The notes beneath the pieces were generated by a model. That model ran no database searches. It was given only the letters and a program-made list of their open reading frames with translations, and had not been told where the DNA came from. A stretch of 64,000 nucleotides of DNA from Gemmatimonadota bacterium (lineage in GTDB: Bacteria; Gemmatimonadota; Gemmatimonadetes; Gemmatimonadales; GWC2-71-9), in contig VGVQ01000019.1 of the NCBI GenBank assembly GCA_016874005.1, positions 1 to 64,000 on the forward strand, given 5' to 3'. Of this stretch, positions 24,121 through 28,897 are shown in pieces. Positions within the stretch are counted from its first letter, which is position 1, and each line of letters begins with the position of its first letter. The translations under genes were made by a program, and so were the position numbers.

Positions 24121-24148
24121 ACAGCCACTCGCTAGCGCGAGTGGCTGT
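24121..24148. terminator. Bidirectional terminator overlapping the csoR stop
   Basis: A perfect 12-bp inverted repeat (ACAGCCACTCGC / GCGAGTGGCTGT) with a 4-nt loop. It includes the csoR stop codon (24132-24134) and lies 13 nt after the preceding plus-strand gene. It serves two convergent units. U-tracts are weak on both sides. Confidence 0.65.
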
Positions 24149-24461
24149 AGATCAAGTCGATCAACTCATCATATGTTTGCTCCGCTCGAGGGCCGCCGGC
24201 GCGCACGGCGGCCGCCACACAGTGGCGGAGGTGATTCCTCATCAGCTCCCGGCCGACCGAGCGGAGCGCTTCATGGGCCGAGGCGATCTGAGCCATCACG
24301 TCGGGACAGTAGCGATCCTCCTCGATCATTTTCTGGAGGCCTCGGATCTGACCTTCGATTCGACGGAGGCGCTTGAGGTTGCCGGCCTTGATTTCGGGAT
24401 CGACATCGTGAGCCTTTCGGCCCCCGACGTCCTTGCCGCATCCGCAGGGCAGTTGGTTCAT
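24132..24461 (-). CDS. csoR: CsoR/RcnR-family metal-sensing repressor (copper)
   Basis: A 109-residue all-helical repressor. Helix one carries [28 protein letters not shown]. The second helix has NHLRHC, giving the Cys-(x)n-His-x3-Cys set that binds Cu(I) in CsoR. An extra N-terminal Cys pair (CGC) is present. The gene overlaps copA by 4 nt (ATGA), so pump and sensor are coupled. CsoR releases operator DNA on binding Cu(I). The matching operator is at 26770-26789 before copA, making this an autoregulated copper-efflux operon. Confidence 0.88.
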
Positions 24462-26758
24462 CGGAACCTCCGCAACCGAAGCGAGTTGGTTACCACGCTG
24501 ACGGAGCTCAAGGCCATCGCCGCGCTGGCGATCACCGGGCTGAGCTGAATGCCGAAGGCGGGGTACAGCACGCCCGCCGCGATCGGGACCCCAATCACGT
24601 TGTAGGCAAAGGCCCAGAACAGGTTCTGCCTCATGGTCCGCACCGTGGCCCGCGACAGCGCGATCGCGTCGGCGACCAAGCCGAGGTCGGGCCGGAGGAT
24701 CGTGATGTCGCCGGCCTCGATCGCCACGTCGCTCCCCGACCCCATCGCGAACCCGACGTCGGCCTGGGCCAGGGCGGGGGCATCGTTGATCCCATCGCCG
24801 ACCATCCCAACTCGCCGACCGGATCGCCGGCGGGTTACCTCGTCGAGTTTCTCCTCCGGCAACACCCCGGCGACGACATCGTCGATCCCGACCGACTGGG
24901 CAATCGTCCCAGCCGGCCCCGGCGCGTCACCGGTCAGCATCGCGACGTCGAGCCCCAGCTCCCGCAGTCGCCCCACGGCCCGCGCCGATGTCTCCCGGAC
25001 ATCGTCGCTGAGATCGATCGCCCCGGCGCACTCCCCGTCGATCGCCACGAATACCCGGGTGGCGCCGACCAGCGGGCTTGGCAACGAACTGGGCGGGGTC
25101 ACCCCGAACTCGGTCATCAGCGTGTCGCGTCCGACGGCAACCAGGTGCCCGCCGACGACCCCGAACGCGCCTTGGCCCGCGACCGAGGAGAACCCTTCGG
25201 CGGCCGCCGGTTCGATGCCGCGCCGCCGGGCGGCCGTCACGATGGCCTTGGCCAGGGGGTGCTCGGAGAGCACCTCGACACCGGCCGCGCTCTCGAGGAC
25301 TCGGGCCGGTTCGAATCGGCCCGCCGGGTGAACCCCCGCGACCACCGGTTTCCCGGTGGTGATCGTGCCGGTCTTGTCGAGCAGCAGCGACTGGAGCGTT
25401 CCGGCCCGTTCGAGGACCTCGCCGCCCTTGATCAAGATGCCAAGCTCGGCGCCCTTCCCGGTGGCGACCATCACGGCGGTCGGGACGGCGAGGCCCATGG
25501 CACATGGGCAGGCGATCACCAGGACGGACACCGAAGCGATGGTGGCCCGAATCAGCGCCGCGTCGGAGACGGTCGAGTACCAAACGACGAAGGTGACCAG
25601 GGCGATCGTCAGAATCACCGGGACGAAGACCCCGCTGATCCGGTCGGCGAGTCGCTGCATCGGGGCCCGAGTGGCCTGAGCCTGGTGCATCATCGTCACG
25701 ATCCGGTCGAGAACCGTACCGGCTCCCACGGCCGTGGTCTCGAGCTCGAAGGCGCCGCTGGTGTTGATGGTCCCCCCGACCACGCGATCCCCGACGGCCC
25801 GGGTGACCGGGAGGGGCTCGCCGGTGAGCATCGACTCGTCGACCGCGCTCGTCCCGGACACGATCCGACCGTCGACCGGAACCCGTTCTCCCGGACGCAC
25901 CACGACACGGTCGCCGACGACGACCTCGGCCAAGGCGATCTCCCGTTCCTGACCGTCTCGAACCACCCGAGCCACCTTGGGGGCGAGGTCGACGAGGCGC
26001 CGGAGCGCGGCGCTGGTTCGATGCTTGGCCCGCGACTCCAAGGTCTGGCCAACCAGGAGTAACCCGAGAATGAGGATGACCGCCTCGTAGTAGACTTCCG
26101 GAGCCAAGCCGCGGCTCTGAAACGCCTCGGGGGCCACGGTCGCCCCCGCACTCAGGCCGAACGCGGCCAGAGTGCCGATCGCGACCAGGGTATTCATGGT
26201 GGCGGTTCGGTGGCGGAAGGCCGTCCAGGCCCGTTGGTAGAAATGGCGGCCCGCCCACCCCATCACCAGGAGCGTCGCGAGGCCCAGGATCCAGCGGATC
26301 AGGGCGGGCCCGATCTGAAAGAGCCACGGCGCCACGGCGCGGAGGGGATCGACCATCCAGGCGGCAGCCCACCGCATCAGCGGATCCATGACCACGGCAC
26401 CGTGACCCCCCGCCATCAGGGGCATCGACAAGACCATCGCGCCGAGGCCGAGTCCCACCGACACCACCGCCTTGCGGCTGAGATCGCGATACTCGGCCCG
26501 TTGCTCCAGGTCGAGTCGCTGGTCGAGCTCGGCGACCGAGCCAGGCGCCTCCAGGCTGGCGTCGTAGCCGGCCCGGCGGACGACTTCGACCAACGCTTCC
26601 GGCGAGGTGACCGACTGGTCGAATTGGACGGCGGCAGTGTGGGTCATCAGGTTGACCGCGGCGGTGCGCACGCCAGGGGCGGTCTCGAGGGAGCGTTGGA
26701 CCCGGGCCTGGCAGGCCCCGCAGGTCATCCCGACGATGGGGAGGGTGACCGATTCCAT
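24458..26758 (-). CDS. copA: Copper-exporting P1B-type ATPase
   Basis: A 766-residue heavy-metal pump. One N-terminal HMA domain has GMTCGACQ. Eight membrane helices are predicted, with the metal-transport motif CPC in [16 protein letters not shown]. The phosphorylation site is DKTGTITTG, the nucleotide-domain HP motif SEHPLAK, and the hinge [20 protein letters not shown]. The CPC motif with the N and C-terminal conserved positions indicates Cu(I)/Ag(I) rather than Zn. It exports copper from the cytoplasm. It is the first gene of copA-csoR. There is no Shine-Dalgarno before the ATG, and the predicted transcription start is at or next to it. Confidence 0.94.
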
Positions 26759-26765
26759 GTCGACT

Positions 26766-26795
26766 AGATTAGGGTACCCCCCTACCCTATGTCAA
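26766..26795 (-). promoter_or_regulatory. copA promoter with CsoR operator in the spacer
   Basis: On the minus strand TTGACA (26795-26790) and TAATCT (26771-26766) are separated by 18 nt. The spacer region is filled by a perfect inverted repeat, TAGGGTA-N6-TACCCTA (26770-26789), with a run of six G/C pairs in the centre. That form (A/T-rich arms flanking a G/C run) is typical of CsoR operators. Repressor bound there would block RNA polymerase. Predicted transcription start is about 26759, the base before the copA ATG. Confidence 0.8.
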
Positions 26796-26839
26796 GCCCG
26801 ATCCGGAACCCCGACCGAGTCGGTCGAGGCCCGAGCGGG

Positions 26840-27427
26840 TCAGAGCTTGATCGCGAGGCCAGCGGTGAGGAGCAGGTCGTGGGTGAACTTGTTGCCCAGC
26901 CCGAAGTCCCCGCCGTAGAAGAGGTCCTCGAGATCGCCTCGGAGGGCGACGTTCTCGCCCAGGGAGATTCGGAGACTCGCCCCCGCCACCCCACCAAACT
27001 CGCTCTCGGCCAGGTCGGCGTCGCGAACCAGACTCCCGGTCCGCTGATAGGCGGCGCCTCCCCCGATGGCGAGGCCGATCAGCTTGCTCCCCGGGGTCAG
27101 GTTGAGCATCAACTTGGCGCTGCCGTATACCAGATCGGTGTTTCGGGGAAACCGCCCCCGCGCCGACTGGACCGAGACCCGGGCCGGCGAGTAGCCGCCA
27201 CTGAACTCGACGCCCAGGGCTCGGCCGGTCCAGACGGTGAGACGGCCGCCATACAAGAGCGACCCTCGCCGAGTGGCGTCGCGAACGGCATCCTGCAAGC
27301 CGTCGTCGTTGGTGGGGACGTAAAGGCCCCCGTTCAGGTTGAGCTCGAGCCCCTTGGTTTGGGCGCTCGCCGGCACCGCAACCAACGCCGCCGCCGCTAA
27401 CCACCGAATCGATCGCCGAATGATCAT
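26840..27427 (-). CDS. Putative outer-membrane beta-barrel protein
   Basis: A 195-residue protein with a Sec signal peptide (IRWLAAAALVAVPASAQ). Alternating strands follow, such as LELNLNGGLYVP, LGVEFSGGYSPARVSV, AKLMLNLTP, IGLAIGGGAAYQ and ASLRISLGENVALRGDLEDL, ending in LLLTAGLAIKL. This is an OmpW/OmpX-sized barrel as used by many environmental bacteria; no particular family recognised. The ATG at 27427 follows GGGGGAG. It ends 45 nt upstream of the copA promoter on the same strand, so separate transcription is likely. Confidence 0.6.
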   Translation of the reverse strand: MIIRRSIRWLAAAALVAVPASAQTKGLELNLNGGLYVPTNDDGLQDAVRDATRRGSLLYGGRLTVWTGRALGVEFSGGYSPARVSVQSARGRFPRNTDLVYGSAKLMLNLTPGSKLIGLAIGGGAAYQRTGSLVRDADLAESEFGGVAGASLRISLGENVALRGDLEDLFYGGDFGLGNKFTHDLLLTAGLAIKL

Positions 27428-27508
27428 CACTCCCCCGAGTGAGAATTGTGCCTCGCGCCCCCCGGCGCGATTGGGAAGTATAGCCCCAGAGGCCCGCGGA
27501 GCCGAAAC

Positions 27509-27528
27509 TCAGTGATCGAGATCACTGA
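27509..27528 (+). promoter_or_regulatory. CRP/FNR-family operator
   Basis: TCAGTGATCGAGATCACTGA is an inverted repeat with two perfect 9-nt arms around a 2-nt centre. Its core GTGA-N6-TCAC is the CRP half-site arrangement, and TGAT-N4-ATCA also matches the FNR core, so the exact family member cannot be told. The centre (27518.5) lies about 60 nt before the predicted transcription start, the class I activator position. Confidence 0.7.
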
Positions 27529-27543
27529 CCGACTTTCGAGCCG

Positions 27544-27572
27544 TTGACAAACCTGAGGGTGCTTCTTAACGT
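27544..27572 (+). promoter_or_regulatory. Sigma-70-type promoter of the structured leader
   Basis: TTGACA (27544-27549) is a perfect -35 box. TAACGT (27567-27572) is a partial -10 match at exactly 17 nt spacing. Predicted transcription start is about 27579. The weak -10 together with the class I palindrome upstream fits an activator-dependent promoter. Confidence 0.65.
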
Positions 27573-27578
27573 GTGGCC

Positions 27579-27934
27579 CCTCGGGAGCGCGTAACAAGCA
27601 AAACGCGGACCCAGAGGGCTTCAGGGCGGGTGGGTACCGCCGTTATGCAAGCGGGCGCAGTCCCGTCGTAACCGGAGAGATGACCGTGACAGCCAGCTAC
27701 TCGTTCACCATCACCGCCGAGAATCTCGTGAGAGATTCGCGCCGGCCTGTCGGCCGGAGGGTGAGGCTTCGATCGCGATAGGCGCCGACGCGCCGGCTTG
27801 TCCGATCTCGCCCCACCCGTGCCCGGCACCGGTGGGGCGAGTCGCTTTCGGGACCTGTGGCAGGCACGCGCCGACGCGGCGTGAACTACGAGAAGCGGAA
27901 GAACGGGGACGAACCGGTCCCCAGGGAGGTATCC
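27579..27934 (+). ncRNA. Long structured 5' leader or small RNA of unknown class
   Basis: About 355 nt separate the promoter from the next start codon. Hairpins visible: 27588-27607 (CGCGT/ACGCG), 27721-27738 (GAATCTC-GTGA-GAGATTC, a GNRA-type loop), 27742-27757 (CCGGCC-TGTC-GGCCGG), 27807-27841 (11 bp, with an inner 5-bp helix in its loop) and 27905-27922 (GGGGAC/GTCCCC), which abuts the Shine-Dalgarno of the next gene. A frame of 33 codons (27680-27781) lies inside, after GGAGAG, but overlaps two hairpins. I could not match it to a riboswitch class I know. The 27807-27841 hairpin may end a short transcript, but its U-tract is poor. Confidence 0.5.
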
Positions 27935-28156
27935 ATGTTACGGCCGACAGTCTATATCCCATCCCGGAATCCGTGCCTCACCGAGGCCCGTTGGCGCCTG
28001 GCGCAGGCCTCGCTCGAGGCGATGGTTGCCCATGCCAAGCGGGAGGCGGCGTGGGAGAAGGCGGACCGCGAGTCGAGCGAGGAACCGCCCGATCCTGCCT
28101 TGGGCGCTGAGCTCGCGGTACCTTACGGGCGTTTCGGCGAGGTGTCTCGAATTTGA
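27935..28156 (+). CDS. Small protein of unknown function, 73 residues
   Basis: A short frame with a good Shine-Dalgarno (GGGAGG, 6 nt before the ATG). The product begins MLRPTVYIPSRNPC and is mainly one amphipathic helix (ARWRLAQASLEAMVAHAKRE and AAWEKADRESS), then an acidic Pro-rich turn and a short tail. No signal or membrane segment. Not recognised. It lies at the end of the structured leader driven by the CRP/FNR-type promoter and 18 nt before a DUF2461 gene, so both are probably on one transcript. Confidence 0.6.
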   Translation: MLRPTVYIPSRNPCLTEARWRLAQASLEAMVAHAKREAAWEKADRESSEEPPDPALGAELAVPYGRFGEVSRI

Positions 28157-28174: not shown

Positions 28175-28897
28175 ATGACCGAGTTTCTCGGGTTTCCGTC
28201 CGCGGCGCAGCGGTTCCTCAGGGACCTCGGCCGGAACAACAACAAAGCGTGGTTCGACGCGCATCGGTCGGACTACGAGGCCGAGCTTCGGGCGCCGATG
28301 AAGGCACTGGTCGAGGCGCTCGATGCCCGGCTGGCATCGTTTGCCCCGGAGATCGTCGGCGACGCTAAGCGATCGATGTTCCGGATCAACCGCGACATTC
28401 GATTCTCCAAGGACAAATCGCCGTACAAGACCAACGCCGGGATCTGGTTCTATCATCAGGATGCCGGCCGCGGGGTCGGCCAGGACGCCGAGGGTGGGGC
28501 CGGGTTCTACTTTCACCTCGACGCCAAGACCTCTTTCGTTGCCGCCGGGGTTTGGATGCCGCCCCGGACGGCTCTCGGCAAGATCCGCGACGCCATCGCG
28601 GCCAAGCCGGCGGCCCTGCGGGCGATCGTCTCGACCCCGGCGTTTCGGCGTCGGTACGGGACCTTTCACGCCGACGCGATGCTCACCCGGGTTCCCCGTG
28701 GCTATCCACCCGATCACCCAGCGGGCGACTGGCTCCGCCTCCAGTCGTTCACCGTCGGGCGCGACGTCGCGGCCTCGGAGCTCCGGACCGCCGGGCTGGT
28801 GACCAAGCTCGCCACCGATTTCAAGGCGATGCTCCCCCTGGTTCGCTGGCTCAACTCGGCGATGGGCTTCCGGCCAGCGACGAAACGGCTGCTGTAG
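28175..28897 (+). CDS. DUF2461 (TIGR02453) family protein
   Basis: A 240-residue cytoplasmic protein. The opening FPSAAQRFLRDLGRNNNKAWFDAHR, the central SMFRINRDIRFSKDKSPYKTNAGIWF and the GFYFHLDAKTSFVAAGVWMP strand are the signatures of DUF2461. The family has no experimentally settled function that I can name; the conserved Arg/Asp/Lys cluster RDIRFSKDKSPYK suggests an anion- or nucleotide-binding surface. Length is normal. It ends just before a hairpin shared with the convergent pilC gene. Confidence 0.88.
   Translation: MTEFLGFPSAAQRFLRDLGRNNNKAWFDAHRSDYEAELRAPMKALVEALDARLASFAPEIVGDAKRSMFRINRDIRFSKDKSPYKTNAGIWFYHQDAGRGVGQDAEGGAGFYFHLDAKTSFVAAGVWMPPRTALGKIRDAIAAKPAALRAIVSTPAFRRRYGTFHADAMLTRVPRGYPPDHPAGDWLRLQSFTVGRDVAASELRTAGLVTKLATDFKAMLPLVRWLNSAMGFRPATKRLL

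Follow-up and report, generated by a model that had tools for sequence, protein, structure and literature searches.

What does the DNA between a divergent outer-membrane gene and a small gene at 27935 of this Gemmatimonadota genome give rise to? An earlier note had read it as a CRP/FNR-type class I promoter driving a ~355-nt structured RNA. The locus lies on contig 19 of a 3.9-Mb genome of a Gemmatimonadota genus, in the 64-kb stretch of DNA that was analysed as a whole (hereafter, the window). Here a csoR-type repressor, a copA-type ATPase and an outer-membrane beta-barrel gene stand in a row on the - strand (24132-27430), and the + strand, divergent from the outer-membrane gene, carries the feature under study, then the small ORF2 and then a DUF2461 gene (Table 1). 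Having weighed several readings that are not all mutually exclusive, we lean towards a ~265-nt mRNA of a micro-gene under Crp control, with part of the transcription continuing into ORF2 and the DUF2461 gene. According to this scheme, a Crp-type regulator bound at -61.5 would activate a sigma-70-type promoter with class I geometry in this genome, the promoter would yield a short mRNA of ~265 nt carrying an ORF of 31-33 codons, the mRNA would end at the intrinsic terminator, and incomplete termination would let transcription proceed into ORF2 and the DUF2461 gene.

Table 1. Features of the locus, with positions in the window
Feature	Position	Strand	Remark
Outer-membrane beta-barrel gene	26840..27430	-	divergent from the feature; synteny anchor in 6/6 genomes
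Putative Crp/Fnr-type operator TCAGTGATCGAGATCACTGA	27509..27528	.	centre -61.5; closely similar sites recur family-wide in intergenic DNA
-35 element TTGACA	27544..27549	+	TTGACAAA invariant in 6/6 genomes
-10 element TAACGT	27567..27572	+	TATCGT, TATTGT or TACTGG in relatives; 17-nt spacer in 6/6
Predicted short transcript, about 265-270 nt	27580..27851	+	inferred from promoter and terminator
5' UTR motif CGTTATGCA	27641..27649	+	common to G001, G003 and G004, partly G005
sORF1, 33 codons + TAG (MTVTASYSFTITAENLVRDSRRPVGRRVRLRSR)	27680..27781	+	start, stop and frame conserved in 6 genomes
GTGA-tetraloop hairpin GAATCTC-GTGA-GAGATTC	27721..27738	+	inside sORF1; absent from the other five genomes
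Predicted intrinsic terminator	27805..27851	+	hairpin with 17-nt arms, then TCGCTTTCGG
ORF2, 73 aa, MLRPTVYIPSR...	27935..28156	+	orthologues in G001, G003, G005
DUF2461/TIGR02453 protein	28175..28897	+	begins 18 nt past ORF2

BLASTN with the region recovered no homologue, a null result that is misleading as the locus diverges fast, and single-protein searches recovered no homologues of the small ORFs. By anchoring on the outer-membrane gene and reading upstream, the locus was recovered in 5/5 other genomes of the genus (including the public MAGs named Gemmatimonadetes JAEUJH010000086, JANXXJ010000095 and CADEGB010000190, here G001, G003 and G005, respectively), and all five relatives retain both the TTGACA promoter and the hairpin terminator. 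A sequence model built from these five relatives, with the window held out, matches the window at 27542-27689 (E = 3.1e-5); run over 102 genomes of the family, the same model gave no convincing copy outside the genus. A paired-motif scan of 84,980 species genomes returned 70 matches, only three of them, all genus members, with a TTGACA-type promoter upstream. The six genomes are otherwise nearly unalignable at the locus, the promoter block being its best conserved part. As to gene order, the micro-gene promoter has the beta-barrel gene next to it in 6/6 members of the genus.

The two promoter hexamers place +1 at 27580, a predicted rather than mapped start. TAACGT agrees with TATAAT at 3/6 positions and a generic promoter scan does not list the promoter, but the block GTTGACAAA...TA..GTG is kept in six genomes and lends support to this poor -10. 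The 20-bp palindrome that the earlier note had placed ~60 nt before the predicted start was found as described: TCAGTGATCGAGATCACTGA is perfect, with 9-bp arms around a 2-bp centre, and is centred at -61.5, the class I position for CRP-family activators (PMC4886647). This GC-rich window contains a fair number of perfect palindromes with 9-bp arms and short spacers; a spacer of at most 2 occurs only in TCAGTGATCGAGATCACTGA. The operator core GTGATCnnGATCAC has a single occurrence in the 64 kb and none in 100 shuffles of the window; elsewhere in this genome its matches lie within what looks like coding sequence, and GTGATCnnGATCAC alone is therefore not diagnostic. The genome encodes a Crp-like protein (G000:C8) with the recognition helix ASRETVSRAM (containing RETVSR), whose best NCBIfam match is CRP at 118 bits, far under the equivalog cut-off of 266 bits. 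Moreover, the related motif TGTGAYnnAGATCACA is present in 19 of the 102 family genomes (reversed control, 0), and a heuristic based on ORFs and GC3 places every fetched locus but one between genes, making the motif a candidate for the Crp regulon of the family. Site sequence, -61.5 spacing, the Crp-like regulator and family-wide intergenic recurrence together support well the class I CRP/FNR-type promoter that had been claimed, and likewise 27509-27528 as a Crp-type operator, for which we infer binding and activation from sequence. The family-wide motif represents a testable regulon motif for an abundant, little-studied phylum; for Gemmatimonadota, a limited literature search found nothing on either small proteins or regulation by Crp.

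The promoter call was good, but the hairpins proposed downstream of it had been over-read from GC-rich DNA. The segment ahead of the terminator (27580-27803) folds with z = -0.57, 53 of 200 shuffles folding as well; a second estimate for the window transcript before the terminator gave z -0.39 (relatives, -1.8 to +0.4), and the stretch from terminator to ORF2 (27842-27940) is ordinary too (z = -1.05). The whole-region value (z = -2.55) is probably carried by the terminator hairpin, since among the at least five hairpins that had been counted, which were not confirmed to exceed chance, only 27804-27841 stands out (z = -3.75). The RNAalifold covariation term for the six sequences is unfavourable, and paired changes across the six genomes are confined to the terminator hairpin, where two pairs changed on both sides, in tests that rest on six sequences, few for a weakly conserved fold. 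A lack of covarying stems in homologous leaders, named beforehand as evidence against a structured RNA, is thus what we found outside the terminator, and the ~355-nt structured RNA is not supported. Of the individual hairpins, the one with a GTGA tetraloop exists in the window but is missing from the other five genomes, and the last (GGGGAC/GTCCCC) does adjoin the Shine-Dalgarno AGGGAGG of the small gene at 27935. Rfam at gathering score returned no riboswitch or small RNA match in the window or the relatives, in agreement with the earlier failure to match a riboswitch class. A cobalamin riboswitch, suggested by eye from CAGTCCCG...GCCAG, was rejected by permissive cmscan, and a long-range stem joining the start and end of the ORF was rejected because no pair in it changed on both sides and its pairing does not exceed that of shuffled partners. 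A search for 6S RNA (RF00013) in the six genus genomes stayed empty up to E = 1; the 6S RNA of the genus may be either highly divergent or absent.

What is conserved between promoter and terminator is a reading frame. An ORF of 31-33 codons (31-32 in the relatives) lies there in 6/6 genomes, with start-to-GGTGGAGG distances of 76, 73, 73, 73, 73 and 79 nt, all 1 mod 3 (chance about 0.4%), and a stop (TAG, TGA or TAA) exactly four codons past AGG/AGA in 6/6. The encoded peptides are basic, with [WR]WR close to the C terminus in five of six; the Trp codons of the relatives have been lost from the window copy. Its Shine-Dalgarno lies very close to the ATG. GC by codon position (0.59/0.63/0.735, as against about 0.68/0.51/0.86 for ordinary genes here) gives sORF1 an intermediate coding composition, and the sole close pair, G001 and G005, differs at 7, 5 and 8 sites by codon position, with no third-position excess. 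Over the sORF1 span, all forward frames are open in three of the six genomes; GC-rich DNA contains few stop codons, and open frames therefore arise easily. Protein-search matches to the 33-aa ORF (e.g. G002:C5) were discarded as chance hits in unrelated sequence. With this moderate coding signal, sORF1 is likely translated. Neither it nor ORF2 matches a Pfam or NCBIfam family, and both are small genes of the kind that automatic pipelines would probably miss.

The strongest of the alternatives is a trans-acting non-coding small RNA of ~265 nt that ends at the terminator and in which the ORF is incidental. Such an RNA would fit a unit that has its own promoter and terminator and stands alone in G004, and it would also fit the slight purifying selection on sORF1. 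Complementarity between the start region of the ORF and its end is moreover seen in G001, G005 and G003 (duplex z -4.3, -3.1 and -4.5, respectively), but it is at chance in G004 (p 0.33), G002 (p 0.10) and the window (p 0.43) and shows no two-sided change. Given also the ordinary global folds, the unfavourable covariation and the empty Rfam search, and because it leaves the conserved frame and stop unexplained, we regard this small RNA as unlikely. The suggestion of a separate RNA ending at 27841 was nonetheless nearer the truth than the ~355-nt structured RNA, though such a transcript conserves a short reading frame and not a fold.

The GC-rich hairpin at 27804-27841 is, as judged from its sequence, an intrinsic terminator; the T tract behind it is weak in the window and TTTT in four relatives, and a generic scan misses the window terminator. 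Copies of GCGCCGACGCG lie on both sides of the hairpin (27782-27797, 27866-27884), so that an alternative pairing is possible. ORF2 follows the terminator in four of the six genomes, its orthologues in G001, G003 and G005 beginning MLRPTIY. G004 has a convergent type II secretion-type gene directly past the terminator, and the downstream position in G002 is taken by a small, unrelated gene, indicating that the short unit is independent of a fixed downstream gene. These arrangements speak against a cis-acting leader in which sORF1 would encode a leader peptide and the 27805 hairpin would serve as an attenuator controlling ORF2 and the DUF2461 gene, as G004 has no same-direction gene to control and that of G002 is unrelated. 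The order terminator-ORF2 in the four other genomes would suit attenuation, as would the Trp/Arg-rich end ([WR]WR) of the relatives' sORF1, reminiscent of trp leader peptides, and, by eye, GGTGGAGG may pair with the CCCCACC arm of the terminator. However, Trp codons are absent from the window ORF, the genes directly downstream are not trp genes, no Pfam leader-peptide family matches and no competing stem with paired changes was found, which makes attenuation improbable.

In the five relatives, a Crp-like palindrome, TGTGAYGSAGATCAC, lies not at -61.5 but at +42.5 to +63.5, overlapping the ribosome-binding region of the short ORF, while in the window the equivalent position is degenerate and the palindrome stands at -61.5 instead. 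From this comparison it looks like the Crp site moved during evolution from downstream of the start to -61.5 beside an unchanged promoter, an instance of operator turnover; at +42 to +64, a bound regulator would more naturally repress. The opposite strand of the relatives was also considered for a class II Crp promoter, a reading rejected because the spacing varies from 13 to 19 nt. In another genus (G021, L114 1513-1531), TTGTGATGGAGATCACATG lies directly at the start codon of a lipoprotein-like gene, the same arrangement of site and start as at the relatives' sORF1. Several of the family's TGTGAYnnAGATCACA loci (L202-L226) adjoin secreted or lipoprotein genes.

The operator might instead serve mainly the divergent outer-membrane gene, its fit to the + strand promoter being secondary. 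That family sites often flank genes for secreted proteins or lipoproteins, and that all six genomes keep the outer-membrane gene as a neighbour, would agree with this. The distances argue otherwise: the centre lies about -48.5 from the likely - strand TATACT, off the usual activating positions, as against -61.5 for the + promoter, and the relatives' site is, as read from sequence, about 100 bp or more from that gene's likely -10. We hold this explanation to be just as improbable as attenuation. Least probable of all is a genus-wide dual-function transcript in which the start region would pair with the stop region, translation of the peptide would decide between termination near 27841 and read-through into ORF2, and the Crp site would shift between blocking and activating positions.

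The Crp-regulated micro-gene mRNA that we favour adds a further instance to known kinds of element, and what is notable about it is the motif of the operator, the relocation of the site and two small genes without a known family. Spot 42 is a Crp-controlled small RNA, and like Crp-controlled small RNAs the unit described here would be a short autonomous transcript with a Crp site and an intrinsic terminator; it differs from them in having a conserved reading frame and no conserved RNA fold. With the leader peptides of trp operons (TrpL, peTrpL), the relatives' short ORF shares late Trp/Arg codons followed by an intrinsic terminator, whereas the window copy has neither a Trp codon nor trp genes directly downstream nor a Pfam match, and its attenuator structure is hypothetical. 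The closest parallel to the window promoter is with class I CRP/FNR promoters such as that of E. coli lac. The outer bases of the site differ (AGTGA/TCACT in the window, TGTGA/TCACA in the class), the -35 is already consensus, so that dependence on an activator is not obvious, and the relatives carry their Crp-like site downstream of the start. In common with these promoters, however, the window has a centre at -61.5, a GTGA-N6-TCAC core and sigma-70-type hexamers 17 nt apart, in a genome that likewise encodes a Crp-like protein with an RETVSR helix.
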